Origin: Candidatus Woesearchaeota archaeon
Lineage (GTDB): Archaea; Nanoarchaeota; Nanoarchaeia; Woesearchaeales; JAGVZT01
Direction: 5' to 3'
Length of the DNA: 17,024 nt
Assembly: GCA_017608295.1 (NCBI GenBank)
Contig: JAFCGF010000038.1
Location: 1-17,024 of the forward strand
Shown: positions 931 to 17,024 of the stretch, in pieces
Layout: every line of letters starts with the position of its first letter
Numbering within the stretch: the first letter of the stretch is position 1
Program-made: the position numbers and the translations under genes
Notes under the pieces: model-generated
The model's database searches: none
The model's input: only the letters and a program-made list of their open reading frames with translations
What the model was told of the DNA's origin: nothing

Positions 931-943
931 AAGGATCAAGTAT

Positions 944-1303: not shown

Positions 1304-1309
1304 GAATAT

Positions 1310-1852: not shown

Positions 1853-2177
1853 TATCAATATCATACGTAAACTGTCTGGCATACCCGCCGAGGAGTTGAT
1901 CACGAAGGAGGTGGTCGATGAGTTGATCGTCTCCCCGCAGATTGCCGAGGGCCGGGCGCAATATATACTGGACAGGCAGGGTCGCAAGTGGTTTGTTTTG
2001 GCCGCCACCACTCAGGCGACCGTGATGCTAAACAGGCTGGATGTTATAGAATTTTGGCTTGATGGGGAGCGGGAAATTGGTTTTTTTCCGTCGCATCCCC
2101 ATGGCCGGAAACAAATATCGCAGGGCAAATCTAGTATGAGCTGGGACATGACAATTTTATTTTTAGAGGGATTATGA
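1845..2177 (+). CDS. Small tail-operon protein, unknown function
   Basis: A protein of 110 residues. Its ATG at 1845 overlaps the previous stop by eight bases (ATGGCTAA), so translation is probably coupled; no good ribosome site is visible. The N-terminal third is helical and acidic (AEELITKEVVDELI), and the middle (RKWFVLAATTQATVMLNRLDVIEFWLDG) looks like an alpha/beta core. There are no Cys residues or membrane segments. I do not recognise it. Coupling on both sides suggests it is made in fixed ratio with its neighbours. Confidence 0.65.
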   Translation: MANINIIRKLSGIPAEELITKEVVDELIVSPQIAEGRAQYILDRQGRKWFVLAATTQATVMLNRLDVIEFWLDGEREIGFFPSHPHGRKQISQGKSSMSWDMTILFLEGL

Positions 2178-2410
2178 GCAAGGGAATGATAATTGGGAAT
2201 GCATTTGATCAATATCGAGTTCATACCATTGATGATCGTGGATGGTGTATCGCTCAACTCTATGGTGAGTTACGTGTAGGGATGTGGTATTTGCAGCATA
2301 ATGGCACATTACATAATACTGTTAATGGGCACAGTGGTGGTTTCTATCCTACCTCACAATCTGCTATCCGGTTTCTACATAGTTACTTACGGAGACGATC
2401 AATCTCATGA
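2174..2410 (+). CDS. Small tail-operon protein, unknown function
   Basis: A protein of 78 residues joined to the previous gene by an ATGA overlap and to the tail fibre by a second ATGA overlap at 2407-2410. GAGGG lies 3 bases before the start. The sequence is rich in aromatic residues, Gly and His (GMWYLQHNGTLHNTVNGHSGG) and ends in a basic tail (LRRRSIS). No known domain is visible. It may be a small adaptor or chaperone translated with the fibre; that is inferred from coupling alone. Confidence 0.6.
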   Translation: MSKGMIIGNAFDQYRVHTIDDRGWCIAQLYGELRVGMWYLQHNGTLHNTVNGHSGGFYPTSQSAIRFLHSYLRRRSIS

Positions 2411-5715: not shown

Positions 5716-5737
5716 TTTATAACAAGGCACCACCTCT

Positions 5738-6178
5738 ATGTCAAAAACAATATGCTCTGCCGTGTTCCTTGTACTGCTCGCCACTGGCACCGGTGCGCTG
5801 TCGGCGGATAACAAACGACTGGATGACCTTGAGGAGCGCATGGATGCGGCTGAATTTCAAGGTGCGCCGACAGCCGCCGATAGCGCAAATCGAGAAATAG
5901 GCCACCTGCTGTTTGAATTTCGCGATGAATGGCGAGATTCCTTGGCGGAAATGAAATTTCTTAGGAAAGACATCAATTTAAATACGCATGAACGAACGGC
6001 AAATACCCGACAGATAGGAATCAATAGAGGGGATATTAAAAGCAATAGTGCGGGAATATCATTAAATACTGGATTACTCATCGTGTTGGCTGGCCTTATA
6101 GGTTGGATTGTGAGAAAAATGAAGAGTAACCCGGACAAGAAGAAAAAAGAAAAATCAAGAATTATCACAGGAAGGTGA
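5738..6178 (+). CDS. Small membrane protein with coiled-coil ectodomain; possible lysis protein
   Basis: A protein of 146 residues. Residues 5-22 form a hydrophobic N-terminal segment that could be a signal peptide (ending near ALSA) or an anchor. Residues 25-105 are polar and helical with coiled-coil character (RLDDLEERMDAAEF and on). Residues 111-125 are a second membrane segment (TGLLIVLAGLIGWIV) followed by a very basic tail rich in Lys. The layout of helical rod, membrane span and basic tail resembles XhlA-type or holin-accessory proteins, but the extra N-terminal hydrophobic segment is unusual. The start has only a weak ribosome site. Role in lysis is inferred from architecture and position after the fibre. 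Confidence 0.7.
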   Translation: MSKTICSAVFLVLLATGTGALSADNKRLDDLEERMDAAEFQGAPTAADSANREIGHLLFEFRDEWRDSLAEMKFLRKDINLNTHERTANTRQIGINRGDIKSNSAGISLNTGLLIVLAGLIGWIVRKMKSNPDKKKKEKSRIITGR

Positions 6179-6181
6179 ATC

Positions 6182-6823
6182 ATGGGTAAAGTAGGCAAAA
6201 CGAGAGATCAGTGGGGGAAGTTTATCGGCACCGTGGGTCTGTGCGTCGGCTCAGGAATCCTCGCTGGGCAATACGCTGTGCTGGGCGATATGACAAACAT
6301 GCTCGTTGCAGGTGTTTTTTTAGCACCACTCGGCGCATATGGCAATAAGGTTCGCCGGTTTGGGGCGGATGTGCGGTACAGGGCAGGCAAGTTACAGCGT
6401 ACGGGTGATGGCGGTCAGGATCAATGGACAGTTATCGTCGCAAAGCACTGGGTGCCATTTTGGAGGTCACCGCTAGACCATTTTAAACTCCCGTTCCATG
6501 CGACCGAGGTCACGGTTGACACTGGCGGGTATGCAGCCGGATCGGTGAGGTGCGGCAAGCGTCCAATTACAGTGATTGCTGGGCACGAAAAAACCGTTGT
6601 GCCAATCGGCAGTGACGATTCTGCACCATCAGCAACAAGGCATGAGGTTGCTCGCCTTGCAACCGTAGCCGTCAAGGCTGATATTGGCATGCGTAATATT
6701 ATGGCCTCTGATACTGGCTATGATGATCTGACAAAATTCCAGCGTCAAAAAATGAGTGAGAATGACTTTTATAAACTGCTCGGTTTATGTATCCTGAAGC
6801 GCGATGGATTAAAGTTGTCATAG
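6182..6823 (+). CDS. Protein with two N-terminal membrane segments, unknown function
   Basis: A protein of 213 residues, four bases after the previous gene, with a good AGGAAGG ribosome site. Two hydrophobic segments at about residues 14-34 (FIGTVGLCVGSGILAGQYAVL) and 38-54 are separated by a tight acidic turn. A basic stretch follows (NKVRRFGADVRYRAGK), then a soluble domain of about 140 residues. The double span resembles a holin hairpin, but the long soluble domain is not typical of holins. It is the last gene of the tail operon. It may act in lysis with its neighbour or be an inner-membrane accessory protein. Confidence 0.65.
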   Translation: MGKVGKTRDQWGKFIGTVGLCVGSGILAGQYAVLGDMTNMLVAGVFLAPLGAYGNKVRRFGADVRYRAGKLQRTGDGGQDQWTVIVAKHWVPFWRSPLDHFKLPFHATEVTVDTGGYAAGSVRCGKRPITVIAGHEKTVVPIGSDDSAPSATRHEVARLATVAVKADIGMRNIMASDTGYDDLTKFQRQKMSENDFYKLLGLCILKRDGLKLS

Positions 6824-6829
6824 TACCAA

Positions 6830-6858
6830 CTCGCCCTGCGCGTATTTCGCAGAGCGAG
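6830..6858. terminator. Inverted repeat between convergent operons, possible weak terminator
   Basis: Arms CTCGCCCTGCG and CGCAGAGCGAG pair over 11 bases with one mismatch around a 7-base loop, seven bases after the stop of the + operon. No T-run follows on either strand, so it is not a classical intrinsic terminator. A second dyad (TATCAGG and CCTGATA, 8-base spacer, roughly 6873-6894) follows. Both sit where two convergent operons must end. Confidence 0.4.
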
Positions 6859-6904
6859 GCCGTGATAATCCGATATCAGGTCAACCTGCCTGATAAAGTC
6901 GGTG

Positions 6905-7081
6905 TTATTCTTCACTGTCCAGTTCTTTCTTGACTTCTGGCCAGCACTGCGGGCAGTAATGCCCCTCAGAGAGATCATGCACATGCCAGCCTGCGTGGAT
7001 AACATCGCCTTCCGTGTCGCCATAAATCTCCACAGATCGACAGCAGTCAAGAGCATCACATGTCATTATTATTTTTATCAT
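6905..7081 (-). CDS. Tiny Cys-rich zinc-finger-like protein, 58 residues
   Basis: ATG at 7081 has AGGGGA 7 bases upstream and the frame ends in TAA at 6905. The product has Cys8, Cys13, Cys14 and a second pair Cys43/Cys46 in the context HYCPQCW, the usual shape of a small zinc ribbon. Between the two halves is an acidic stretch and a His-rich segment (HAGWHVHDL). The C-terminus is charged (EVKKELDSEE). It is the last gene of the operon headed by the ADP-ribosyltransferase-like protein and starts 13 bases after the preceding gene. The function is unknown; a small nucleic-acid or protein adaptor is likely. The product is too short for many gene finders. Confidence 0.75.
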   Translation of the reverse strand: MIKIIMTCDALDCCRSVEIYGDTEGDVIHAGWHVHDLSEGHYCPQCWPEVKKELDSEE

Positions 7082-7094
7082 GGTAAATTCCCCT

Positions 7095-7268
7095 TTAAAG
7101 TCTCCGCTGAATACGCAAAAGCGACTTTACCCTAGATTTGCAAACTGGGTGCACAAGCCCTTTTTGATCATACTTGGCCAATGTCTTATTGATCATCACC
7201 CGTGCTCTCTCCGGATCGCCGTAACTGAGTTTTAGGAAAAGTGCTGCGCTGAATTTCCGGGCGATCAT
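7095..7268 (-). CDS. Small basic protein, 57 residues, unknown function
   Basis: ATG at 7268 overlaps the stop of the preceding 54-residue gene (ATGA), so initiation is likely by coupling; there is no clear ribosome site. The product is helical and strongly basic, with a middle (LSYGDPERARVMINKTLAKY) that reads like a real helical bundle and a basic tail (SRVKSLLRIQRRL). There is one Cys and no membrane segment. Nothing was recognised. Being basic and small, it may bind nucleic acid. The frame stays open for about 25 codons upstream of the ATG without another start codon. Confidence 0.55.
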   Translation of the reverse strand: MIARKFSAALFLKLSYGDPERARVMINKTLAKYDQKGLVHPVCKSRVKSLLRIQRRL

Positions 7269-7429
7269 GATGTCAAAGTCCGGATGTTCAAAACATAAAG
7301 AAAAAACCGTTCGCTCCGGCGATTCAAAAACGTTTTCCGCGCTTCACGAGCCACAGCCCGCCTTCCAATTCTCATCCTTTTTCTGTTCCCCGTTGCCCGG
7401 CCTTGTTTTAGGATTGTTTTCGGTTTCAT
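7265..7429 (-). CDS. Small Arg/Lys-rich protein, 54 residues, unknown function
   Basis: ATG at 7429 has a strong GGAGGG site 5 bases upstream and lies 12 bases after the stop of the ADP-ribosyltransferase-like gene. The product is very basic (GNRKRMRIGRRAVAREARK), probably a single amphipathic helix, and ends in a hydrophobic patch (RFFLYVLNIRTLTS). Its stop overlaps the next start. The strong ribosome site is the best evidence that it is real, since so short a basic frame could arise by chance. Alternatively it may serve mainly as a leader that feeds ribosomes into the next gene. Confidence 0.5.
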   Translation of the reverse strand: MKPKTILKQGRATGNRKRMRIGRRAVAREARKTFLNRRSERFFLYVLNIRTLTS

Positions 7430-7441
7430 TATTCCCTCCGG

Positions 7442-7765
7442 TTAAATTCCTGATATTTCCTCATAATTCTCATAGTATGTATACTGTGCGTTCGGGATAG
7501 GCAGGTCATCATTTATGAAAACTTCAGCGTCATTTTCCAGTGCCTCATCCACATCCACCCAGTCACAACTCTCATTATCGGCCTGTAACGTTATTCCGGT
7601 GTCAATATCGTCGATAGTAATAACCACTCCACAGGAATCATTATTTAATGCATATTCAACAGCCTGCTCATAATTTGCCGTTAGGTAAACCGGGCCATTA
7701 ATTGTGCCACTTGCTTTTATTGAATGAGCATTTTCTCTTGAGGTGCCATGATATAATGCTTTCAT
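7442..7765 (-). CDS. Small ADP-ribosyltransferase-like protein
   Basis: A protein of 107 residues with GGAGA four bases before the ATG. The N-terminus LYHGTS (His6) followed by VYLT (Tyr27) and a helix with AVEYAL resembles the start of the H-Y-E branch of ADP-ribosyltransferase folds (PARP and RNA 2'-phosphotransferase type). The segment AEVFINDDLPIP near the C-terminus matches the place of the third conserved element, with Glu81 as the possible catalytic Glu. At 107 residues it is shorter than most of these enzymes, so it may be a minimal or inactive version. It is the first gene of a separate operon driven by a consensus promoter. Phage members of this fold modify host RNA polymerase, translation or defence proteins; a target here is not visible. 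Confidence 0.6.
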   Translation of the reverse strand: MKALYHGTSRENAHSIKASGTINGPVYLTANYEQAVEYALNNDSCGVVITIDDIDTGITLQADNESCDWVDVDEALENDAEVFINDDLPIPNAQYTYYENYEEISGI

Positions 7766-7806
7766 TTCGATCTCCGTTGAAGTTTTTCTTTCCTTTTCTT
7801 TACCCT

Positions 7807-7842
7807 ATACTTTATTATATGCGATATTCGCATAGCTGTCAA
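7807..7842 (-). promoter_or_regulatory. Consensus sigma-70 promoter for the ART-like operon
   Basis: On the - strand the -35 box TTGACA (7837-7842) and the -10 box TATAAT (7814-7819) both match consensus fully and are 17 bases apart, the optimal spacing. Transcription would start near 7807, some 40 bases before the ART-like gene. It lies directly behind the terminator of the lysis operon, so this operon has its own control. A promoter this strong on a phage normally needs a repressor; see the dyad in its spacer. Confidence 0.85.
7818..7834. promoter_or_regulatory. Operator-like dyad inside the promoter
   Basis: A perfect inverted repeat TATGCGA-ata-TCGCATA (- strand reading) fills most of the -35/-10 spacer and its last two bases are the first two of the -10 box. 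A dimeric repressor bound here would block RNA polymerase. No obvious repressor gene lies in the window. A half-site TATGCGA also overlaps the -10 box of repeat element A (11692-11698). Confidence 0.6.
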
Positions 7843-7843
7843 A

Positions 7844-7881
7844 TAAAAAAGCACCCGTTGAAAGAGAAAATCAGCGGGTGC
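7844..7881 (-). terminator. Intrinsic terminator after the lysis genes
   Basis: On the - strand a 10-base-pair stem, GCACCCGCTG with CAACGGGTGC (one G-U pair), around an 11-base loop is followed by a run of six T and then ATTT. It starts six bases after the stop of the peptidoglycan hydrolase. This is a textbook rho-independent terminator. Confidence 0.9.
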
Positions 7882-7886
7882 GGCGA

Positions 7887-8618
7887 TCAGTTTAAAATCT
7901 CGTCAACCAAATCCAGTATTTGACCAGCAGGAGGCCGCTTGACCGGCTGCAAGTGCCTCGTTGTTTGATATTCTGCCTGACCGACTGGCTGGGCATACAC
8001 GGGCCGTTTTTTGGCACTGTACCGTAGGGCTGGCGGTTGTGGAAATATTTTCCCCCTTGGAACATATCCCAGGGTTTCAAAGAAATGTTCGCCAACTTGA
8101 ACCCCCTTACTTGTCGCCCAATCTGGGATAATCACCTCTGGATTGTAATAGTGATCTGCGGTAAAATTCTTCACCCTTTCTAAGCGCAAAACTCGCTCGG
8201 TAAAATCAAGCCATTCCCCAAATTTTTGAGCACCGGAGCGTGTTGATAAACCAAGACGCTTCTGCAGACTCTGTTGTGACCCCAAATCATCCCATGCGGA
8301 AAATTGCCATTCCCGATGAAGCTCAACCGCCAAGGGTTGCCCGGTCAAGCGACTGCGATTTTCTGCCACCTGGAGAATGCGCAATGCCTCACCCAAAGCA
8401 TCCGGGCGATGCAGTGAGCCAATGGACAACTCGCCGGCAAATGTCACGGCCAGCAATACCCGGTCTCTGGCTGTATACGGATTCGGAATATATTTGACCG
8501 TCTCAATCCGTTTTACAATGACACGTTCCATAGGGCTGTTAACTGCCCGACATCCTGCGTAGACCAGCATTACCGCCAAGATCGCAGTAGCTAAATAGCA
8601 TAAAATTTCCTGTATCAT
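7887..8618 (-). CDS. Membrane-anchored SleB/CwlJ-type cell wall hydrolase, putative endolysin
   Basis: A protein of 243 residues. Residues 5-23 are a hydrophobic N-terminal anchor (ILCYLATAILAVMLVYAGC), consistent with a signal-anchor-release or permanently tethered endolysin. Residues about 52-170 resemble the Hydrolase_2 family: an early Glu (AGELS, Glu63), the conserved ILQVAENRSR helix, WQFSAWDD (104-111) and ADHYYNPEVIIPDWA (His156, Trp168). The family attacks peptidoglycan, in SleB as a lytic transglycosylase. The C-terminal about 70 residues are basic and proline-rich and belong to no domain I know. Its start overlaps the lipoprotein stop (ATGA), and a strong terminator follows, so it closes the operon. 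Confidence 0.75.
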   Translation of the reverse strand: MIQEILCYLATAILAVMLVYAGCRAVNSPMERVIVKRIETVKYIPNPYTARDRVLLAVTFAGELSIGSLHRPDALGEALRILQVAENRSRLTGQPLAVELHREWQFSAWDDLGSQQSLQKRLGLSTRSGAQKFGEWLDFTERVLRLERVKNFTADHYYNPEVIIPDWATSKGVQVGEHFFETLGYVPRGKIFPQPPALRYSAKKRPVYAQPVGQAEYQTTRHLQPVKRPPAGQILDLVDEILN

Positions 8619-9583
8619 TCACACACCCCGTACGTCACCATTTTTGCCGCAGGAAAGGTATATGTCCGCCCGTCGCGATCACATTGGATATCACCAGCCG
8701 GTACCTCGTGCTGGTTCCAATATGATTCGCGGCCCTCGTCCTGCCCATGATGAGGGATCTCCGTATTGCCAACATAGCAGCGGTCAAAATCCGCCGGTTG
8801 CCCTTCGCAAAGTACCAGAGATTTTCCGCCATCTGGGCCGCCTGAGGTAGTGTGGTGGAATTGGGCATTGTTACTGCTGCCAGCAGAAGTCTCCGTATTG
8901 GCATCGTCATGATCGTGTTCTCTTGTCGAGGTCAACCCATCAATCAGTTTACCGCCGAGGGAGTCCGCCAACTCAAACCCCTGCCCTGTGATCCACGCAG
9001 TTGTACCCATCCTCGCCACATTGCCGATAAGGTTCAACCCGCCAGAAATCAACTGCTCGCTCATTAGTTGCGGCTGGATATACTGCGGTGCTGCTTCGGG
9101 CACCTCGTCCGCCGCTGAATCAATAGTTGCGGCAGGGCTGTTAAGGTTGATATTCGCATCACCAAAAACAAAAATTGGCTGACCAGATTGCTGCGGAATG
9201 TTAGCGGTTACCGGCGCGGGCGGATCAATACCGCTAAGTATCCGCTTTGCCTGCTGTTTGAGCCTATCGCAATATTGCGCCTTCGTTTCATCCTGATCCT
9301 TGCACATGATCGCATACAAACCGGTTATATCAATTTGAGGCCGCTGGATAACAGGGGCGGAGGCAGGTGTCCTGAATGTTGCCAATGCCGCCATGCTCAA
9401 TTGATGCTTAGAGACCGCCTGATTATAGTCCGCCATCGCTGCCCGTTCCGCACTGCGCTCGATGCGAGTGTTGATTTCATCCGCCTGCTTTACCCTGCGC
9501 TCGTCAATCCGCTCGATAGCGGCACAGCCTAACAGTCCCTGCGTTACAGCAGTTAGCGCAAGTAACAAAAAATACATCTTCAT
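8615..9583 (-). CDS. Large lipoprotein of the lysis cassette, unknown function
   Basis: A protein of 322 residues with a signal peptide ending in the lipobox LLGC (Cys20), so it should be lipidated and placed in the outer or inner membrane. Residues about 22-65 are a charged helix that may form a coiled coil. The middle is Pro- and Ala-rich and then Gly-rich with a hydrophobic stretch (ISGGLNLIGNVARMGTTAWI). A His/Asp-rich linker leads to a C-terminal domain with four Cys, which may form disulfides in the periplasm. It is linked by ATGA overlaps to both the Ogr-like gene and the hydrolase. By place it could be an outer-membrane spanin component, but it is far longer than Rz1-type proteins and no inner-membrane partner is seen. 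Confidence 0.65.
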   Translation of the reverse strand: MKMYFLLLALTAVTQGLLGCAAIERIDERRVKQADEINTRIERSAERAAMADYNQAVSKHQLSMAALATFRTPASAPVIQRPQIDITGLYAIMCKDQDETKAQYCDRLKQQAKRILSGIDPPAPVTANIPQQSGQPIFVFGDANINLNSPAATIDSAADEVPEAAPQYIQPQLMSEQLISGGLNLIGNVARMGTTAWITGQGFELADSLGGKLIDGLTSTREHDHDDANTETSAGSSNNAQFHHTTSGGPDGGKSLVLCEGQPADFDRCYVGNTEIPHHGQDEGRESYWNQHEVPAGDIQCDRDGRTYTFPAAKMVTYGVCE

Positions 9584-10002
9584 GCGATTTCCTCTTTATC
9601 AAAAACAATATTATACGGCAGTACGTCAATCGCCTGACCGCTAATACCTCTCCCAATATGCAATACCTCCACGTCACCGGTAACCGCACCTAAAAGTGAC
9701 ACCTCAAAAGTGTCAAAATAAAAAGAGCCACCGACCTCCACCCGCGCCTTTATGACACCATCATGGTTGCTCAGTATCGTTAATGTCAAGAGGCGTTTAA
9801 ACACATCAAACATAACCGCAATTTGATAAGTCTCACTGACCAAAAACGCACCAGGTAGAAACTCCGGGCCGGTACCAGTCTCAACAAATTCCGCGCCGCA
9901 GAAATCGGACGTGCATTTGAAGGAATCCATCCATGCATGTTTTACCAATCTCGGACTGACTGGCGAGGCTGCATGATCGCACCGTGGGCATTTATTATTC
10001 AT
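9580..10002 (-). CDS. Ogr/Delta-like zinc-finger protein, putative late-gene activator
   Basis: A protein of 140 residues starting at ATG 10002; the longer in-frame start would put 26 residues inside the previous gene and lacks a ribosome site, while GGGG(T)GG precedes this ATG. Cys5, Cys8, Cys30 and Cys35 with CPRCDHAASPVSPRL and CTSDFCGAEF match the CxxC-(21-22)-CxxxxC layout and flanking residues of the P2 Ogr/Delta family, which activates late phage promoters through RNA polymerase alpha. Known members are about 70-80 residues; this one has an extra beta-rich domain (about 50-140) I do not recognise. It overlaps its upstream neighbour by 8 bases and the lipoprotein by 4. It could drive lysis or tail genes; a structural zinc-ribbon role cannot be excluded. 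Confidence 0.65.
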   Translation of the reverse strand: MNNKCPRCDHAASPVSPRLVKHAWMDSFKCTSDFCGAEFVETGTGPEFLPGAFLVSETYQIAVMFDVFKRLLTLTILSNHDGVIKARVEVGGSFYFDTFEVSLLGAVTGDVEVLHIGRGISGQAIDVLPYNIVFDKEEIA

Positions 10003-10276
10003 CGCCACCCCCCGTATCAAACAGCGATCCCGGCGACCCGACCTGTTGACACAGAGATTCCACCTCAGCGGCGCGCGCATGGGTCTGGTTTAATTTACTG
10101 GCAACAATTGCTTTAGCGACATCCTTAATTGCTGCCTGTATTGTTGGGTCACCAATTATATTTGCGATATATATCTCGTCAATCCGGTCGTCGATCTCCT
10201 GTTTAAATTCCGACAACTCTTCTAATGTGGCTACAATAGCAGTGATTGCGGTTTGCTTATTTTGTTCTGATGCCAT
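9995..10276 (-). CDS. Small helical protein, unknown function
   Basis: A protein of 93 residues with GGAGG 10 bases before the ATG. It is acidic and predicted almost fully helical (TLEELSEFKQEIDDRIDEI, then IQAAIKDVAKAIVASKL), with a Gly-rich end (SLFDTGGGDE) that overlaps the start of the Ogr-like gene by eight bases. It could be a small oligomeric adaptor. It starts two bases after the DUF1064-like gene. I recognise no family. Confidence 0.65.
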   Translation of the reverse strand: MASEQNKQTAITAIVATLEELSEFKQEIDDRIDEIYIANIIGDPTIQAAIKDVAKAIVASKLNQTHARAAEVESLCQQVGSPGSLFDTGGGDE

Positions 10277-10278
10277 TT

Positions 10279-10659
10279 TTAATATACCTCCAAAAATGCT
10301 ATTGATGAATATTGCTCATGAAACAATTGCCTCTTGAGCCGATATGTACTTTCCTTTGCTGTCGATGGTGATTTTACATCCTCAACAACGACAGTACCAG
10401 GGGTGATAATATCACTACACAGAGAAACATATTGAAAATCAGGGATATATTTCCGAGCTGCCATCATTCTGCCGGTGGCGGAATCCCTAACACCTCCAAG
10501 GCTGATTTTGAAAACCGGCTGAAGAATCAAATCGCAGATAATTCCGTCGTTAACCATTTGCTTAAGTTCAATGTACCGAAACATTTCCCGCCGAGAATCA
10601 AACTTGTACCCATCGCACTCAGGTTTCTTTTTGGATGTGTTGTATTTGAGCCGCTTCAT
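10279..10659 (-). CDS. DUF1064-like protein, putative PD-(D/E)XK nuclease
   Basis: A protein of 126 residues. The order of motifs matches the phage DUF1064 family: a basic N-terminus (KYNTSKKK), GYKFDSRREMFRY (Glu25), LILQPVF, YIPDFQY (Asp74), VVVEDVKS (Glu93/Asp94, Lys96) and a closing YRLKRQLF. The spaced Glu, Asp and (E/D)xK residues form the pattern of a restriction-like endonuclease fold. Members are common in phage DNA-metabolism regions; the substrate is not established and a branch- or end-specific nuclease is an inference. Its ATG overlaps the previous stop (ATGA), so it depends on coupling. Confidence 0.75.
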   Translation of the reverse strand: MKRLKYNTSKKKPECDGYKFDSRREMFRYIELKQMVNDGIICDLILQPVFKISLGGVRDSATGRMMAARKYIPDFQYVSLCSDIITPGTVVVEDVKSPSTAKESTYRLKRQLFHEQYSSIAFLEVY

Positions 10660-10844
10660 ACCGAATACCAGACGATATCCGAGAGCATTACATACGGATT
10701 ATGGTTCATGTTGCTGTCCATAAAAAACACCATGCCCAAAATTGTTGTATCATAGACACCAACCCTCATAATATTGTCAGTCCCGATAATAGTGGTTTCC
10801 TTTCCCTGCGCTGCTGATTTTTCGAAAATGTTAACTAATGACAT
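10656..10844 (-). CDS. Small protein, 62 residues, unknown function
   Basis: ATG at 10844 is chosen over one 12 bases upstream because GGAGGG lies 5 bases before it; the earlier ATG has that motif inside its second and third codons. The product has an alternating hydrophobic pattern (TTILGMVFFMDSN and PYVMLSDIVWYSV), probably a small beta-sheet protein and not a membrane protein. It overlaps the next gene by ATGA. No family recognised. Confidence 0.6.
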   Translation of the reverse strand: MSLVNIFEKSAAQGKETTIIGTDNIMRVGVYDTTILGMVFFMDSNMNHNPYVMLSDIVWYSV

Positions 10845-10875
10845 ACTGCCCTCCATTGGTATGATATCTCTTTTA

Positions 10876-11073
10876 TCAGCTGTTTTCGAATGCCAAGATG
10901 TGGGCGCGTAAGGCGACCGTATAAGCCTTCAACGTTTCATCGCCTAGCTCAATTCGACAGTCAAAGATTTCCCATAAGTTTAATGTTACTAGTGGATCAT
11001 CTCTCTCAAGTGCCGCGTGGCACTCATCAATTGTAGTTGGCACTTCGGTCATCCATTTAGCATCAGGTTTCAT
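10876..11073 (-). CDS. Small acidic helical protein, 65 residues, unknown function
   Basis: The ATG overlaps the preceding stop by 11 bases, and a weak AGG lies 9 bases upstream. The product is acidic and helical (TIDECHAALERDD, LWEIFDCRIELGDETLKAY, VALRAHILAF). It looks like a compact three-helix protein. No metal motif, membrane span or known domain is visible. It belongs to the run of overlapping small genes behind repeat element A. Confidence 0.6.
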   Translation of the reverse strand: MKPDAKWMTEVPTTIDECHAALERDDPLVTLNLWEIFDCRIELGDETLKAYTVALRAHILAFENS

Positions 11074-11290
11074 TATTGTTACCTATATTTAAGATTCTTC
11101 CAGCAGCTTCAACCGACCTCGGATCTCCGTAAACCTGCCCGCATTCACACAATGAGCTAGCCGACACACTCACCGGTTCAGTGGTCATCCTTAAAAGATC
11201 TGGGTATTCCGATATTTTAAAAACACCCTCTGCACATGAGCAGCACAATAAATCTTGATCAAACTGCATACCAATAGCGACAGTGTTCAT
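11063..11290 (-). CDS. Small Cys-rich protein, 75 residues, zinc-binding likely
   Basis: The ATG overlaps the previous stop (ATGA). Cys16, Cys17 and Cys19 near the N-terminus (LLCCSCAEGVF) pair with Cys48 and Cys50 (LCECGQVYG), an arrangement that suggests a zinc ribbon with two knuckles separated by a 28-residue beta segment. No DNA-binding domain is otherwise visible. The function is unknown. It belongs to a series of small Cys-pair proteins along this strand. Confidence 0.65.
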   Translation of the reverse strand: MNTVAIGMQFDQDLLCCSCAEGVFKISEYPDLLRMTTEPVSVSASSLCECGQVYGDPRSVEAAGRILNIGNNNET

Positions 11291-11586
11291 CGTTCCGTCA
11301 ACTCGCAGTATCTTGTTCCGAGTCCAGTAGAAAAAGTCTGGGCTCGTTCCGGGCTTACCAAGTAAGGTAACACCTTATCAGCATATTGACTTTCTAACGG
11401 CGAATACCCTCCATCTTTTTCCCGTTCAACCTCGTACTGCTCCTTGGTCAGTCCCCAGGTGTCACCCAAACGCTCCGAGATGACAAGCATGTTCATAAAA
11501 ATCTGCTCATGCTTACACGATTGGAATACGCTGCCCATAACAAAACTACCTTTAAAATGAGACGGCCTGATCGATACTGATTCCAT
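11287..11586 (-). CDS. First gene of the operon behind element A, unknown function
   Basis: A protein of 99 residues; TTGGAGA precedes the ATG by about six bases. The sequence begins with a Phe/Ser/Gly-rich part (HFKGSFVMGSVFQSC), then a helix (EQIFMNMLVISERLG), a charged stretch (KEQYEVEREKDGGY) and a C-terminal part with one Cys. Nothing was recognised. It is the first coding region after repeat element A, whose putative start site is about 95 bases upstream, so it is probably among the first products of that transcript. Confidence 0.65.
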   Translation of the reverse strand: MESVSIRPSHFKGSFVMGSVFQSCKHEQIFMNMLVISERLGDTWGLTKEQYEVEREKDGGYSPLESQYADKVLPYLVSPERAQTFSTGLGTRYCELTER

Positions 11587-11635
11587 GTATTTTCTCCAAT
11601 TATTATTGTTTTAGCTTGTATCTATAACCTATTTT

Positions 11636-11730
11636 AAGGGTCATCTGTTATCCGCAAGTCAATGCTTGTTTCCTGACCCTCTGTAAGTATTATCGCATAT
11701 TATGACGTTTTATACAAGGATAATCGGTCA
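11636..11730 (-). repeat. Repeat element A: two-copy intergenic control element
   Basis: This 95-base stretch is related to element B at 14944-15037. On the - strand both have a conserved box TGACCGATTATCCT, a variable middle of about 28 bases, a 28-base block identical in both (+ strand 11660-11687 here, 14968-14995 in B), a partly conserved link and a shared end ACAGATGACCCTT. AGGGTCA at the front of the identical block and TGACCCT at the end can pair as a 7-base stem. The element starts 16 bases after the stop of the Cys5 gene. It is likely a promoter plus structured leader. Confidence 0.8.
11689..11717 (-). promoter_or_regulatory. Putative promoter within element A
   Basis: On the - strand a -10 box GATAAT (11689-11694) carries an extended TGC just ahead and lies 17 bases from a poor -35 box TTGTAT (11712-11717). 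The conserved box TGACCGATTATCC lies immediately upstream of the -35, where an activator could replace the poor -35 contact. The start site would fall at the front of the conserved AGGGTCA block. The matching place in element B is only TAGACT and TAGTAA. Confidence 0.5.
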
Positions 11731-11746
11731 CGTCACAAAAGAATCG

Positions 11747-11923
11747 TCATGGATATTTAAGGTTAAAAATATCATATAAATTCTCCACGGTACTCGACGT
11801 ATCTGGCGCGTCCTGCACCGCCTCAGCAACCGCGCATGTGTCACACACATACACGGTTCCTTTTCGGATTTTCCCTTTAATGTCGCCGCAATACTCCCCG
11901 CAATATTGACAATAAATTTTCAT
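11747..11923 (-). CDS. Tiny zinc-ribbon protein, 58 residues
   Basis: The frame runs from ATG 11923 to TGA 11747. Cys5 and Cys8 (YCQYCG), Cys12, and Cys27 and Cys30 (VCDTC) give two CxxC pairs 18 residues apart, a classic small zinc ribbon; the basic stretch between them (IKGKIRKG) could contact nucleic acid. The C-terminal half is acidic (AVQDAPDTSSTVENLYDIF). It is too short for many gene finders but the Cys pattern and codon use support it. It starts 28 bases behind the 46-residue gene and is followed by element A. Confidence 0.8.
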   Translation of the reverse strand: MKIYCQYCGEYCGDIKGKIRKGTVYVCDTCAVAEAVQDAPDTSSTVENLYDIFNLKYP

Positions 11924-11951
11924 GGTATTGTCTCATCCCTGCAGTACAGTT

Positions 11952-12092
11952 TCAATATTTACTGCACCAATAATAATGCAGTCCATCGTTATCATCTCCA
12001 CATTCAGAGCAATATTTCGCTTTTTTCGGTTTTTTCCTACGCAAGACTCTAATCTTCTTCTTTAATTTCTTTATTTTCTTTTTATTACCCAT
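11952..12092 (-). CDS. Tiny Lys-rich protein with CxxC knuckle, 46 residues
   Basis: ATG at 12092 has AAGGAG 6 bases upstream. The first 26 residues are almost all Lys, Arg and aliphatic (KKKIKKLKKKIRVLRRKK), likely a basic helix that binds nucleic acid. The rest holds Cys28, Cys31, His39 and Cys43 (YCSECGD then HYYWCSKY), enough ligands for one zinc. A basic arm with a single zinc knuckle suits an RNA- or DNA-binding peptide. Function unknown. It lies 33 bases after the metallophosphoesterase. Confidence 0.75.
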   Translation of the reverse strand: MGNKKKIKKLKKKIRVLRRKKPKKAKYCSECGDDNDGLHYYWCSKY

Positions 12093-12124
12093 TCGAAACT
12101 CCTTAATATTTTTTTAATAATCAA

Positions 12125-12985
12125 TCAACTTAGTGGAATAAATTCAGCATGATTCGGAGCGTAAACAATGCCACACCCTAATACGCCCTTCCATTTTGCA
12201 TATTGCCCATATCTGGCCGCCAGCGAATCGGCATCAAAAAGACAACCGCAATTCATGCCGAAAATGGTATCTCGGTAATTACTCCGATATGCCACCATAG
12301 CATAACTGTGAGTATGTCCCTGACAAAAAGAAGACCGTTTGGCAATGGCCGTATTGATCGCACCATACATACCACCCGATCCGATCCCGTGCTCGATCAA
12401 GACGGCACCGTTAAATATCGTATGATACAGCGGTTCAATCTTCCAGCCTGCACTTAACCCATATAACTCATTTTTTTCCTTGAGAATACCCGGTGCAAGA
12501 CCAAGCAGTTTAATTTGTCTGCTGGGAATTGCATCGTGATTACCTTCCACCAAAACGCCAGTCGGGAAAGCTTTATTGACCGAATCACTCCACTCCAATG
12601 CTTTTTGATATTCGACCTCGGGTGATGGGCTATCGGTCTCGGATACAAAGCGGCTCATGGCGTGATGATCAAAAAAATCGCCCGCACATACGACCGACCC
12701 ACACCCGTGAGCGGAATAGGTGTCCTGTAAAAATTCTAGTGCCTTTACGTGCTGATACGGCGCATGAGTGTCGCTAAATACGAGCACAGGTTTATTCTCA
12801 GTGTCGATAACTCGCGACGGAGCACCGCAAAAAGAGGCGATTTCTTGCCGGTGTTTAAATGCGCTCAGTGCATTGCCCGCCTCATGACTAGATATGTCCA
12901 ACATTTTTGCAAGACGCGCCCGGCTTACCGTATCGCCCTGCTGATGCAGGGCGGCAATCTTCTCAAAAATTGCAAGAAATTTCAT
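12125..12985 (-). CDS. HTH-containing calcineurin-like metallophosphoesterase
   Basis: A protein of 286 residues; ATG 12985 is chosen because it follows AAGGAGGTGT directly, while the 17-codon longer frame lacks such a site. Residues about 1-55 form a winged-helix-like domain (DTVSRARLAKMLDISSHEAG). The rest is a metallophosphoesterase with all main metal motifs: SDTH (Asp72, His74), GDFFD (Asp103, Asp106), GNHD (Asn149, His150), His199 and GHTH (224-226). Such enzymes need two metal ions and cleave phosphoesters in DNA, RNA or nucleotides. The HTH suggests it is brought to DNA. It may process DNA ends or degrade host nucleic acid; the substrate cannot be told from sequence. Confidence 0.85.
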   Translation of the reverse strand: MKFLAIFEKIAALHQQGDTVSRARLAKMLDISSHEAGNALSAFKHRQEIASFCGAPSRVIDTENKPVLVFSDTHAPYQHVKALEFLQDTYSAHGCGSVVCAGDFFDHHAMSRFVSETDSPSPEVEYQKALEWSDSVNKAFPTGVLVEGNHDAIPSRQIKLLGLAPGILKEKNELYGLSAGWKIEPLYHTIFNGAVLIEHGIGSGGMYGAINTAIAKRSSFCQGHTHSYAMVAYRSNYRDTIFGMNCGCLFDADSLAARYGQYAKWKGVLGCGIVYAPNHAEFIPLS

Positions 12986-13036
12986 ACACCTCCTTCGACG
13001 CTGCACCATACATGCAACTGCTGCACTCTCGATCAT

Positions 13037-13462
13037 CTATCGACATTCTGCGCCCTCCTGTCCAATCGATACTGCTGGTTCCCAACGAGTGCCATCGCAT
13101 TCCGCACAGGGAGACTCATAAGAGGCTGTCCACATGTGAGCACATTCCGTGCACCGCCCAAAACCATCATACCCCCTGTATTGTTCAAAATATTGCAGAG
13201 ACCTCTTGCTGCCTGAACAATCCGACCCGCCGCAACAGGGCTTTGCCTTCATATCCATTTCCCGAATGACCATAAGAATTACAGTCACCGCCCTCATAAG
13301 GGTGATTCTTTTCAGTGGTTTTTTACACCTGACAATATAGTCATATAGTCCGATCAGCGTAACTCTCAACATACGAGCATCGCTCATGCTTATTTGAGAT
13401 ATATCACCAAGGCGATTTTGCACTTCAGCCAGCAACGCCTTTTCAGCACATTGTTTTTTCAT
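13037..13462 (-). CDS. Cys-rich protein with helical N-terminus, unknown function
   Basis: A protein of 141 residues whose ATG overlaps the previous stop (ATGA). The first 70 residues are helical and basic. The second half holds Cys76, Cys77, Cys82, then Cys104 and Cys107 (RCTECA) and Cys119 and Cys122 (PCAECDG), enough for one or two zinc sites, with Trp and Tyr between them. The closing part resembles a zinc ribbon. An internal ATG at Met69 or Met71 could start a separate Cys-rich protein, since GGGA lies upstream. Function unknown; nucleic-acid binding is a guess from the metal motif. Confidence 0.65.
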   Translation of the reverse strand: MKKQCAEKALLAEVQNRLGDISQISMSDARMLRVTLIGLYDYIVRCKKPLKRITLMRAVTVILMVIREMDMKAKPCCGGSDCSGSKRSLQYFEQYRGYDGFGRCTECAHMWTASYESPCAECDGTRWEPAVSIGQEGAECR

Positions 13463-13767
13463 TTGATCACTCCATATTGGGTTATCAGTCCAGTATGCAC
13501 CAATGCATCATTCAGCGCATTTTTATAATGATTTTCGATGCGCTCAGGTGCCCAGCCCTGCGGCAGTTGTTCGAAAACCCCGTGTGCAAACCCCAGGGCA
13601 TATTGTGTCACGACAAGAAAATCATGCACCAACTCCGGATCGTGTCGCGGGTCAAGTGCTGTATTTTTGATCATTCCGGCCATGACAGGAAACACATTAT
13701 AAAATACCCTATATGCCTCGATACCTCTATGTTCCCGGACAATTTGGAAAGCATTTTGTGGTCGCAT
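13459..13767 (-). CDS. Helical protein, 102 residues, unknown function
   Basis: This protein is soluble and helical, with His- and aromatic-rich segments (YRVFYNVFPVMAGM, VHDFLVVTQYALGFAHGVFEQL). It starts six bases after the preceding stop and overlaps the next gene by ATGA. No Cys, membrane span or known motif is present. The length and composition suggest a small helical bundle, perhaps a subunit of a larger complex. No family recognised. Confidence 0.65.
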   Translation of the reverse strand: MRPQNAFQIVREHRGIEAYRVFYNVFPVMAGMIKNTALDPRHDPELVHDFLVVTQYALGFAHGVFEQLPQGWAPERIENHYKNALNDALVHTGLITQYGVIK

Positions 13768-13773
13768 ATTACC

Positions 13774-14022
13774 CTAGTAGGTTATTGTGAGATTGCCTTC
13801 AAACTTATCGTATTGCGATGTATAACAACTATCGAGCAACGTTTGGATACCTGTCGCAGTTGCGATGTCAAGTTTATGTGACCCTTTGCTGTACACAAGG
13901 ATCGTGCGCCGTTTGACATTATGTATCACATTTAACCAGTGATATGCATCTCGCAAAAATTGTGTCAATCCGCTGGCTTTTCCGCTGTCCTTTCGGTATG
14001 CCTGCTTTTTTTTTGCGGTCAC
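13774..14022 (-). CDS. Small basic protein, 82 residues, GTG start
   Basis: The frame could begin at 14160, but that would overlap the next gene by more than 130 bases. GTG at 14022 lies four bases after the previous stop and has GAGGA 7 bases upstream, so it is preferred. The product starts basic (TAKKKQAYRKDSGKAS), then has a helix (LTQFLRDAYHWLNVIH) and a beta-like part (RRTILVYSKGSHKLDI). No family recognised. The basic start and small size would fit a DNA- or RNA-associated protein. Confidence 0.6.
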   Translation of the reverse strand: MTAKKKQAYRKDSGKASGLTQFLRDAYHWLNVIHNVKRRTILVYSKGSHKLDIATATGIQTLLDSCYTSQYDKFEGNLTITY

Positions 14023-14026
14023 CTGT

Positions 14027-14452
14027 CTATCCTCTATTACATGGTAATGTGCGTAATTCGTCAAGAATTTCTTCAACCCCAGGAAATTCCGTCTCGTCGA
14101 ACCAGTATAGGCCGTCACATAGGTATTTGGCAAAATTAGATACAATGCAGCATGCCTCATCTAGTAACAATTTCGCTGCTGGAATGGACGGAAATATTAC
14201 ATAACCGGCCTCTAAATCAACCAACATCCCATGCGCCGGAACACCAAATGAATATTGAATTTTGGCTTTTTCGATAGATTTCAACGCGCGACCGGCTGAC
14301 TGAATTATCAATGTCGCTGCCGCCTTTTTAAGGTTAGACCATGCCTTTCTCATGGCCACCGAAAACAATGCCCACATTTTTTGCTTATCTTGGATGAGTT
14401 TTTGATACTCATTTTGCCTCATTATCTTCCATGCGCTCGCTGTCAAATTCAT
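14027..14452 (-). CDS. Helical protein, 141 residues, unknown function
   Basis: ATG at 14452 follows a strong AGGAGG site 5 bases upstream. The N-terminal half is basic and helical (ALFSVAMRKAWSNLKKA is reminiscent of a short segment seen in several phage proteins); the middle is beta-like and hydrophobic (GMLVDLEAGYVIF), and the end is acidic. Two adjacent Cys (ACCIV) occur in a buried-looking helix. It is the first gene after the roughly 600-base gap and has a -10-like site about 80 bases upstream. No function can be assigned. Confidence 0.65.
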   Translation of the reverse strand: MNLTASAWKIMRQNEYQKLIQDKQKMWALFSVAMRKAWSNLKKAAATLIIQSAGRALKSIEKAKIQYSFGVPAHGMLVDLEAGYVIFPSIPAAKLLLDEACCIVSNFAKYLCDGLYWFDETEFPGVEEILDELRTLPCNRG

Positions 14453-14530
14453 TTGTTCCTCCTGATTTCATATTTCCGCCCTTGGTAATACGCCTGACCT
14501 ATCGCTGCCAGTCTTTCGCTGGCTCTTATC

Positions 14531-14536
14531 ATTATA
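14531..14536 (-). promoter_or_regulatory. Putative -10 box ahead of the 141-residue gene
   Basis: A perfect TATAAT on the - strand, about 80 bases upstream of ATG 14452. No good -35 box is found 16-18 bases ahead (the place reads CCCAAC), so it would need an activator. The dyad at 14561-14580 lies about 37 bases further upstream. Confidence 0.4.
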
Positions 14537-14560
14537 CTGCCTATGTATGTAGTGTTGGGC

Positions 14561-14580
14561 CGATTGTTAAAATACAATCG
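14561..14580. promoter_or_regulatory. Dyad CGATTGT-N6-ACAATCG, possible activator site
   Basis: A perfect inverted repeat of 7-base arms around TAAAAT. Its centre lies near -47 relative to the start expected from the TATAAT box, where an activator could bind. On the + strand it is followed by TTTTAC, so a weak hairpin terminator on that strand is an alternative. Confidence 0.4.
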
Positions 14581-14723
14581 TTTTACAAACCCGGATTTGT
14601 CCCTAGCAAATAATCCTACTTAGCTAGATCTTCATCTATTTATTTTCTACATTAGTGGGTACTCGCCATTGCGCAACCTCCCTTCGCTAATAATTCAGGA
14701 TCAATATTGAATTCCTCTAACCT

Positions 14724-14885
14724 TTAAGGGTTTTTCTTGTTACACCTCAGTCGGATCTTTGATATATCATCACCTCCTTTTCTGTTTGGCGCGTTTTTAG
14801 CGTTCAGTTTATGCTTACTTTTTCCATTTTCCTTCAGGCTGGAGGGCCGCTTCAAAGCTTTTTGATAGCTCCACGCCTCATCCAA
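14724..14885 (-). CDS. Possible Lys-rich small protein, 53 residues, TTG start
   Basis: A frame from TTG 14885 (GGAG six bases ahead) to TAA 14724 encodes a very Lys- and Asn-rich peptide (KENGKSKHKLNAKNAPNRKG). No ATG is available. Beyond the TAA the same frame stays open for 23 codons with protein-like content (EEFNIDPELLAKGGCAMASTH) and stops at 14652. The frame may be a small basic protein, a decayed gene, or a readthrough product; the region could also be RNA only. Weak evidence. Confidence 0.35.
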   Translation of the reverse strand: MDEAWSYQKALKRPSSLKENGKSKHKLNAKNAPNRKGGDDISKIRLRCNKKNP

Positions 14886-14943
14886 TTCGGCTCCACATTA
14901 CTAGACGACCTGATGCTTCAACGCCTACTATTTTACTCTTTCA

Positions 14944-15037
14944 AAGGGTCATCTGTAACCACAATTCAATGCTTGTTTCCTGACCCTCTGTAAACAGTCT
15001 ACCATGGTGGGATTTTTTTTACTAGGATAATCGGTCA
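14944..15037 (-). repeat. Repeat element B: second copy of the intergenic control element
   Basis: This 94-base stretch is related to element A (11636-11730) in the same orientation, with one single-base length difference. It begins 11 bases after the stop of the SSB gene. The 28-base identical core (14968-14995), the TGACCGATTATCCT box and the 7-base dyad arms AGGGTCA and TGACCCT are all kept, while the middle has diverged. The -10 position is only TAGACT, so if it is a promoter it is weaker or uses another polymerase or activator. Confidence 0.8.
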
Positions 15038-15048
15038 TACCTTGAAAA

Positions 15049-15462
15049 TTAAAACGGAACAGAATTGTCTCCACCGCTCGGTTCAACCGGGCCGGGATCA
15101 AAGCCGCCGCCGGAACCTCCCTGACCGCCGCCTTCACCGCGTGGAGTCAGCATCTTCATTTCGCGGGCCACAATTTCCGTTGTATAGCGGTCATTGCCGT
15201 CTTTATCCTGCCATTTTCGGGTTTGGAGCTTGCCCTCAATGTAAACTTTTGATCCCTTACTTAGATATTCACCGCAGATTTCAGCCAATCGCTTCCAAGT
15301 AACAATTGTATGCCATTCTGTTTGCTCCTGCATCTGCCCATCCTGCCCCTTCCAACGCTCAGTTGTGGCAACGCGGAAATTGGTTACGGATACGCCAGAG
15401 GTTGTTGTTTTCTGCTCTGGGTCGGCTCCAAGATTACCGATTAAAATGACTAAATTTTTCAT
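15049..15462 (-). CDS. ssb: Single-stranded DNA-binding protein
   Basis: A protein of 137 residues from ATG 15462; AAGGG lies 8 bases ahead, and an in-frame GTG nine bases earlier is less well placed. Residues 1-100 are an OB fold of the bacterial SSB family ([61 protein letters not shown]). A Gly-rich linker follows ([10 protein letters not shown]), then the tip GGDNSVPF. The usual tip is DDDIPF; here Pro-Phe is kept but only one acidic residue remains near it, so docking of host SSB partners may be weaker or phage-specific. It protects single-stranded DNA during phage replication and recombination and is last in the recombination block. Confidence 0.96.
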
Positions 15463-15467
15463 ATAAA

Positions 15468-15779
15468 TCACCCTTGCGATTTTCTTTCGCGCTCTGTTTT
15501 GATGATAATATCACGCAACTCCGCACATAAATCTGGGTATACTGCGCAATTAGATTGTACAGCATGATCTATCAAAGATATCGCCGCCGCTTTGCTGCTT
15601 TGCCACCTAAATGTAACACACACGGCAAAATCGTCCAGATACTGTGCATATAATGGAGTGTTCTCCCGTGCAAACTCAAAAAATACCTCCCTGCGGACTG
15701 GAACAATTACAATCCGAATTAAGTGGCCACTTATCAACCTGCGGTAAATTTTACATTCCTCTAAGGGTTCAACTGACAT
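15468..15779 (-). CDS. Small protein between exonuclease and SSB, unknown function
   Basis: A protein of 103 residues; the ATG overlaps the preceding stop by 11 bases, with AAGGTG about 8 bases upstream. It starts acidic, then has a beta-like basic segment ([23 protein letters not shown]) and a helical end with two Cys ([16 protein letters not shown]). No known motif is present. It is packed between the exonuclease and SSB, so a role in recombination or replication is plausible but inferred. Confidence 0.65.
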
Positions 15780-16128
15780 GGCTCAACACCTTCAGAATTC
15801 CAACACAATCCCGTAGCGGCGTGTGTCCGGTCAAATCCATTTTGACATGTAACTCGCCACCTAAATCGATAACCACAATAATCTGGTACCGTGAGGGTTT
15901 TCTACACACCAAAACCTCGTACCGGCCCGGTTCGGTGATTTCACTCCACGGCTCCGTCGGCATATGCAGAGTTTCGCACCAAACATGAAATTCCTTCAAT
16001 TCGCTCGGTGACAAAATCCTCTCGAAGCGTTTGTAATTTTTCTGCATCCAGCGCAATAACTTCAATTTGGTATTTTTCCGTAATGCCTCTGATTTGCAAC
16101 AGTCAAGAGCGTTATTTACTACTTCCAC
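15769..16128 (-). CDS. Protein of the recombination block, unknown function, GTG start
   Basis: A protein of 119 residues. GTG at 16128 is chosen because GGAGGA lies 6 bases ahead and the overlap with the exonuclease is only 10 bases; a longer start at 16161 has no ribosome site. Early Cys pair (LDCCKSEA), a basic helix (NTKLKLLRWMQKNYKRFE) and a beta-rich C-terminal half (RYEVLVCRKPSRYQIIVVIDLGGELHVKM) are visible. No family recognised. It may be a partner of the exonuclease; context only. Confidence 0.65.
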   Translation of the reverse strand: MEVVNNALDCCKSEALRKNTKLKLLRWMQKNYKRFERILSPSELKEFHVWCETLHMPTEPWSEITEPGRYEVLVCRKPSRYQIIVVIDLGGELHVKMDLTGHTPLRDCVGILKVLSHVS

Positions 16129-16784
16129 TTCAATTCCTCCACTTGTTTTGTCACAACACACTCAAAACCTTCAAGTCGTGTCTGTAGTTTTTTTACATTT
16201 TCCAGATAATCTAGGTCGTTAACTGATACCCTGACAATAAATAAATTATCAGGTGCGGAAATCTCAGTGCAAAAGCTGACAAAATCAAGCCACTGAACGG
16301 CTGGATTGCAAAACTGTGCCGAATAAAGCTCGTGCGTTGTTTGCCACCTATATGAGCTGTCGATTTTCCCCAATTTTAATCGTTTACGGTGTACCGATTC
16401 TATCCCAACCTTGACCTCTAAAACACCGTCACAATAAATAAGACCGTCCGGTGACGCTCCATGCGTTTTGTTATCAAAAAAACCGCCCGCTGCCACCTCG
16501 ACAAATCTTGTCGCCTCATAAAGTGCGATAGCGACCGGCTCCTGTTGTATGCCATGCGTCATGTGGGCATTGGCAAACCCGTCATCAATGATTGGTCTAC
16601 CGGTCACCCGCTCCTCTGCCAGTTTTGCCGCCAGTCGCAATGCCGGTTCACCAAAAACTGGTTCACCGAGTTCATTTTTTTTACCATAGTGAGCCATAAT
16701 CTTTGACATCTCCGAGCCAGTCACTTTACCGGCCCGGAGGTCAAACCATGCATCGGTGCGCTGTTCAATATCTACCCAGGGCAT
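16119..16784 (-). CDS. YqaJ-like phage recombination exonuclease
   Basis: A protein of 221 residues from ATG 16784 (TGATG junction with the preceding gene; an in-frame GTG nine bases earlier is possible). It has the YqaJ order of motifs: QRTDAWFDLRAGKVTGSE, HGIQQEPVAIALYE (Glu82), GASPDGL (Asp113), LEVKV (Glu123, Lys125) and YRWQTTHELY, which form the PD-(D/E)XK catalytic site of lambda Exo-like nucleases. Such enzymes degrade one strand of a double-stranded end and hand the other strand to an annealing protein for recombination. SSB lies two genes downstream. No annealing protein is visible in the window; it may lie beyond the right edge. Confidence 0.9.
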   Translation of the reverse strand: MPWVDIEQRTDAWFDLRAGKVTGSEMSKIMAHYGKKNELGEPVFGEPALRLAAKLAEERVTGRPIIDDGFANAHMTHGIQQEPVAIALYEATRFVEVAAGGFFDNKTHGASPDGLIYCDGVLEVKVGIESVHRKRLKLGKIDSSYRWQTTHELYSAQFCNPAVQWLDFVSFCTEISAPDNLFIVRVSVNDLDYLENVKKLQTRLEGFECVVTKQVEELKWK

Positions 16785-17024
16785 CAAGACCACGCTTCGC
16801 AGGTTTTTAAATCCTCACAGGATGAGCATTCACTGACCTGCACAGACCGATTATGCGATATACATTTAAAACCGGTTTTCATATTTTCTGCCTCTGCCAG
16901 TAGATCACGCTCTATTGCAGCCGGAATTGTCCGATGCTTTTTAACCACTGCCAGTCGACCGTCGAGCACTGCCGATATAGCATTAACCCACTCCTGCGGT
17001 TTGTTTTTATTGAGGTCTGGTTTT
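16784..17024 (-). CDS. C-terminal part of a Cys-containing protein, 5'-truncated
   Basis: The frame is open to the right edge of the window, so the start is outside; the GTG at 16969 is probably internal. Seventy-nine residues are visible. They include a helical part (AAIERDLLAEAENM) and a closing Cys cluster (CSSCEDLKTC), one CxxC with a further Cys, likely metal-binding. It overlaps the exonuclease by one base (TGATG), so it belongs to the same operon. In other phages the gene next to YqaJ is often an annealing protein, but I cannot recognise one in this tail. Confidence 0.6.
   Translation of the reverse strand, partial: KPDLNKNKPQEWVNAISAVLDGRLAVVKKHRTIPAAIERDLLAEAENMKTGFKCISHNRSVQVSECSSCEDLKTCEAWS

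Follow-up and report, generated by a model that had tools for sequence, protein, structure and literature searches.

The middle promoters of phage T4 carry a MotA box, (a/t)(a/t)(a/t)TGCTTtA, located 12 ± 1 bp from the −10 element (PMC2988021). The put RNAs of phage HK022 are about 70 nucleotides (nt) long and contain two stem-loops, with putL lying just downstream of its promoter (PMC9378689). PeSL cassettes of T4-like phages are called promoter-terminator motifs in a title cited by PMC4503421, and conserved intergenic motifs of unclear function have been described in a Pseudomonas PB1-like phage (PMC3008698); repeated intergenic motifs in phages are therefore not new as such. The subject of the present analysis is a short intergenic element present in two copies, A and B, in a stretch of 17,024 nt (contig JAFCGF010000038.1, positions 1 to 17,024; hereafter the window), which is a piece of the genome of a tailed phage, and the element's carrier is a virus of bacteria. 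What the window itself establishes is one duplicated local element, seen in a single sequence. We read this element, with a probability of roughly 0.58, as a regulated phage promoter cassette that is read on the minus strand and gives a 5′-terminal hairpin leader. Among phage control elements it is a new instance of a known and fairly ordinary kind, and its unusual trait is the identical hairpin leader, loop bases included.

Copy A occupies positions 11636–11730 (95 nt) and copy B positions 14944–15037 (94 nt). The genes neighbouring both copies are predicted on the minus strand, which is the meaningful strand of the element. Self-BLAST aligned the copies with 81.05% identity over 95 columns (E = 1.04e-18), a likeness beyond chance; the pair was the sole window row in that search under the intergenic filter used, and the first direct family listed in a repeat search. 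Their borders are sharp, the 60-nt flanks agreeing at only 14/60 and 19/60 positions. A starts 16 nt behind the stop codon of a minus-strand open reading frame (ORF) at 11747–11923, and B starts 11 nt behind that of the minus-strand ssb gene at 15049–15471, each copy lying ahead of the next minus-strand genes. As direct repeats, they enclose a 3.2-kb gene block. An earlier note on this DNA had described two same-orientation copies at these positions, 11–16 bases behind a stop and built from a 28-base identical block, a 14-base box and an end block; its coordinates and parts were borne out.

On the minus strand, the order of parts is a 14-nt box, a diverged spacer, an extended −10-like site, the core, the loop and the 3′ arm. 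The columns at which A and B differ are clustered, with 14 of the 18 inside one 32-column stretch (permutation p = 0.0006). This agrees with the description of the middle as different in the earlier note, but the middle is itself homologous: the spacer from the box to ACAGAGGG is 32 nt, its length exactly kept, with 18/32 positions identical (shuffle p = 0.00075). The box, TGACCGATTATCCT, lies at 11717–11730 in A and is identical in B (15024–15037). It would span about −48 to −35 relative to the predicted transcription start, and is a candidate regulator site. It has only two exact copies in the window. Within three mismatches there are nine matches in total, compared with 4.93 ± 2.08 in shuffles (at least nine in 9 of 200), and the seven weaker look-alikes are at about chance level. 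The identical core of 28 nt (11659–11686 in A, 14966–14993 in B) covers the predicted start and the 5′ half of the hairpin; a 19-nt core occurs twice in the window within three mismatches and in none of 200 shuffles. The end block, 13 nt long, is also identical in A and B.

The hairpin spans 11636–11681 in A and 14944–14988 in B, and its 45–46 nt would begin at about +2 of the predicted transcript. The 7-nt arms AGGGTCA/TGACCCT, which had been noticed earlier as able to form a stem, are perfectly complementary in both copies; with one G-U pair added, they make eight pairs in all around a 30-nt loop in A, and in B the same arms enclose a loop of 29 nt. Predicted folding energies are −14.8 kcal/mol for A and −14.2 kcal/mol for B, with arm pair probabilities of 0.976–1.0 and 0.971–1.0, respectively. 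Compared with shuffles, the 55-nt piece of A has a z-score of −3.6 (0/200 as good), and the 101-nt pieces reach −2.75 in A (3/200) and −4.5 in B (1/200). The closing pair of the hairpin is the last base of the element that is conserved between A and B. That conservation stops at stem closure argues that the RNA stem matters, and is our best single argument. The loop retains GGAAACAAGCATTGA in both copies, and its 5′ half is identical in them, which suggests that something reads the loop as well. The folds predicted for the whole elements differ upstream of the hairpin.

This leader has other features. In A as in B, ACAGA stands at each of the two stem arms (ACAGAGGGTCA and ACAGATGACCC), forming a short direct repeat inside the leader. 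An AGGA in the loop lies eight bases ahead of a TTG, from which the reading by eye is Met-Thr-Cys-Gly-stop in A and Met-Asn-Cys-Gly-Tyr-Arg-stop in B, the third and fourth codons differing between the copies at the third base only; a tiny leader peptide encoded in the hairpin loop is possible, and could easily be chance. RNA pairing between box and leader was rejected, as TTATCC/GGATAA could pair in A and is lost in B. An intrinsic terminator was likewise rejected on reading, the stem being followed by TAAAATAGG and TTGAAAGAG with no T run, and a terminator scan covering loops of 3–8 nt found no terminator-like site at either copy. PeSL cassettes resemble the element in being compact, repeated intergenic units of a promoter and a stem-loop, and differ from it in that here the stem follows the promoter and no T run lies past it.

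Promoter activity, start site, regulator and the role of the hairpin are what we infer from the following signals. The best-scoring extended −10-like sites of the two copies, TGCGATAAT in A (11689–11697, 7/8) and TGGTAGACT in B (14996–15004, 6/8), stand at an identical offset on the minus strand. As sequence matches, both follow the pattern of TGn plus a −10 hexamer, with TGC GATAAT in A and TGG TAGACT in B. Among some 34,000 positions on both strands of the window, 17 score 7/8 and one scores 8/8. Of 95-mers sampled from the window, 4.6% reach the 7/8 of A and 42.6% the 6/8 of B, so that these sites are support rather than proof. The predicted start, about 7 nt past the −10, falls at 11682 in A and 14989 in B.

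Under the promoter reading, the cassette would head two early operons in the DNA-metabolism region. Host RNA polymerase would recognise the extended −10 despite a poor −35, and the 14-nt box, abutting or overlapping the −35 region, would be bound by a regulator that is most likely an activator encoded by the phage. It is the combination of a weak −35 and an adjacent invariant box that suggests an activator, in principle like T4 middle promoters, in which a phage element replaces or assists a weak −35 ahead of a −10 read by host sigma-70; about half of these T4 promoters have an extended −10. The box described here differs from that of MotA, lacking TGCTT and lying 22 nt upstream of the −10 hexamer. 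Transcription from the two predicted starts would give mRNAs that each open with the hairpin. Its 5′-terminal stem would protect the mRNA against decay that depends on the 5′ end, and a protein may also read the hairpin. A hairpin at the extreme 5′ end would suit mRNA protection, and the mRNA-stabilising 5′-terminal stem-loops of the ompA type are known for the position of the stem rather than for a conserved loop. The stem of the element, which begins no more than about 2 nt from the predicted 5′ end, is like these, whereas its loop, identical in both copies over its 5′ half, is not.

A number of observations weigh against a promoter cassette. The −35 positions are poor (TTGTAT in A and TAGTAA in B, 3/6 each, with a spacer of 17), and the −10 hexamer of B matches at only 4/6. 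A scan for the two-hexamer sigma-70 consensus (9 of 12) returned 38 promoter-like sites in the window, with neither copy among them. As A and B are homologous, their common −10 offset does not count as independent evidence. PHROGs on 20 window ORFs and Pfam on 20, which are part of the ORFs present, revealed no transcription regulator. The 55-nt piece of B has a z-score of only −1.6, with 13/200 shuffles as good, and other tests of the clustering of differences were weaker (longest run, p = 0.016; run changes, p = 0.20, not significant). Finally, neither a third copy nor a relative with the element was found in the searches described below. The proposal in the earlier note of a promoter with an activator box and a structured leader is the best fit to the shared offset of the −10-like sites, the box some 35–48 nt upstream of the start and the hairpin at about +2; taken together, the interpretations in that note are partly supported. 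The general architecture, with a stem directly after an extended −10, occurs at 17 sites in the window, compared with 7, 4 and 6 in rough block shuffles; of these sites, 15 lie outside the element. Among 13 loci of relatives, the count exceeded all three of the locus's own shuffles in four (L061, L065, L066 and L068) and did not in nine.

The identity of the 5′ half of the loop keeps open another role for the hairpin, namely that of a processive antitermination site in RNA, either put-like and acting on RNA polymerase or nut-like and acting with a phage protein, which would allow read-through of downstream terminators in two operons. As with putL and putR of HK022, there are two related copies, one per predicted early transcript, and each lies at the predicted start of its transcription unit, much as putL lies just past its promoter (PMC9378689). 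Moreover, the 28 identical bases include the 5′ arm and unpaired loop bases, which is beyond the need of a plain stem. Unlike the longer, two-stem put RNAs, however, the element has a single outer stem-loop of 45–46 nt with a 29–30-nt loop, and its upstream box and fixed spacing are left unexplained. No Rfam family speaks for such a site either: Rfam 15 gave no match at gathering score across the whole window; with E values up to 10 allowed, copy A still had none, and the region of B had two hits at chance level (E 1.2 and 3.2), the former, CRISPR-DR24 at 14930–14959, overlapping the 3′ arm. We consider an antitermination site rather unlikely. It is doubtful, more so still, that the identical leader represents a compact antitermination (or RNA-polymerase-modifying) RNA of a new, single-stem type, which an uncultured phage lineage would place at each early operon together with a dedicated, regulated promoter. 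An improbable reading is that of an RNase III-type site for processing or stability within a long minus-strand mRNA, where the hairpin would be cut or would protect neighbouring message ends and no promoter would be involved. It accords with the stable stem and with the location of both copies between minus-strand genes that are read in one direction. Against it stand the conserved −10-like site and the 14-nt box, which is the same in A and B about 30 nt ahead of the core, beyond a stretch that has diverged and kept its length, and which lies outside any common RNA fold of the two copies.

A different origin for the repeat would be a duplicated homology patch or a recombination boundary, in the manner of a gene-shuffling promoter/stem-loop cassette, or else a short mobile element. 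Sharply bordered direct repeats on either side of a 3.2-kb gene block are what such an origin would leave, but the conserved blocks and fixed spacing resemble binding sites more than passive homology, and on reading there is neither a target-site duplication nor an inverted end common to both copies; we regard this origin as very unlikely. Transposon ends, which the earlier note had also thought unlikely, and a MITE-like element (miniature inverted-repeat transposable element) were rejected, as there is no flanking duplication and a partial inverted end (9/13) is found in A alone. The least probable reading, to which we attach hardly any weight, takes the core as the promoter of a phage-coded single-subunit RNA polymerase. 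It would account for a long identical block around the predicted start, but not for the stem arms or for only two copies in 17 kb. This suggestion of the earlier note gained no support from PF00940, which was not seen in 13 records (12 viral and one metagenome-assembled genome, MAG) holding a distant relative of the window's metallophosphoesterase, several of them fragments, in a search that rang in 0 of 14 control genomes.

The regulated promoter cassette remains the preferred reading of a pair for which further copies were sought in several collections. In viral_contigs, the exact 28-mer had no match; GATTATCC-gap-AGGGTCAGG had 44, all unrelated when lined up by eye, an apparent excess at gap 32 being due to families of near-identical contigs. 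The same inspection found unrelated sequence at all nine stretches with CAGAGGGTCAGG-gap-TGACCCT, all eight matches to a 16-mer and all eight to the box plus extended −10. Against phages, the region of copy A matched 149 records at E up to 10, with no homologous copy among the best 20 of the 149, which were 37-nt matches at E 2 lying within genes of ICP1/JSF-group Vibrio phages; the region of copy B matched none at E up to 1. Copy A matched no plasmid at E 1e-5. A two-copy profile run over 136 loci found nothing outside the window (best outside, E 2). The conservation of block and box in relatives, which the earlier note had proposed to look for, was not encountered in viral_contigs, phages, plasmids (copy A only) or the 136 loci. 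No title or abstract among those listed by literature searches, which cannot look for sequence letters, described this element.

Relatives were sought through the metallophosphoesterase. This gave 63 proteins including that of the window, 13 of which (its own included) were aligned, and led to one genome locus and to the 80 best among 436 viral loci. Self-BLAST found intergenic self-repeat pairs in 18 of 83 loci; the 11 of these viewed by eye were terminator-like, ribosome-site-like, AT-rich, tRNA-like or coding, and not the element. A search of 398 genomes returned only the one already known, the metallophosphoesterase had no match in plasmids, and the tail protein had no viral relative. With tblastn against phages, the metallophosphoesterase matched 646 records and the exonuclease 133, all below 60% identity, and the single-strand DNA-binding protein 2327, of which 10 were at 60–80% (best among the matches listed, 61%). 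The nearest searchable metallophosphoesterase relatives have 53% identity (one contig, from a MAG labelled Erythrobacter) and, among the best 80 of 436 viral loci, at most 52%, and are probably too distant for an intergenic element. Proteins closer to those of the window exist (P0002, 78%; P0004, 72%; P0065, 76%); as their contigs lie outside the comparison, an absence of conservation is not established either.

The window as a whole has two blocks of genes. On the left, the plus strand carries probable structural genes, where only one large ORF (2407–5715) has weak head or tail matches. On the right, the minus strand carries a DNA-metabolism run with PHROG matches to exonuclease, ssb, metallophosphoesterase and Holliday-junction resolvase. 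Near the convergence of the plus- and minus-strand blocks, a perfect TTGACA-17-TATAAT promoter-like site (7814–7842, minus strand) precedes a 107-amino-acid minus-strand ORF (7442–7765). The ORF just upstream of A encodes 58 amino acids; downstream of A on the same strand is one of 99 amino acids (11287–11586) with a Shine-Dalgarno-like TTGGAGAAA ahead of it, which has three relatives besides itself (64–79% identity) and no Pfam or PHROG match. The gene just upstream of B encodes a single-strand DNA-binding protein (phrog_44, E 5.4e-52). Downstream of B, a gap of about 490 nt (14460–14944, minus strand) precedes a gene at 14027–14452 and has no convincing gene. It holds only a doubtful, weakly supported ORF of 53 amino acids with a TTG start (14724–14885), for which a homologue search was empty, along with a hairpin (CGATTGT/ACAATCG, 14561–14580) and several Shine-Dalgarno-like sites preceding very short frames. 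By eye, the N-terminal stretch of the metallophosphoesterase (12125–13036, minus strand) resembles a helix-turn-helix; such an extension is absent in 10 of 12 aligned relatives, and those of P0002 and P0015 differ in sequence.

The promoter cassette reading comes from one genome fragment. If true, it would mean that in an uncultured phage lineage a single regulator governs the early operons as a group and that their mRNAs all carry a common RNA cap. Through the conserved loop, a new partner that binds RNA or modifies polymerase could then be found.

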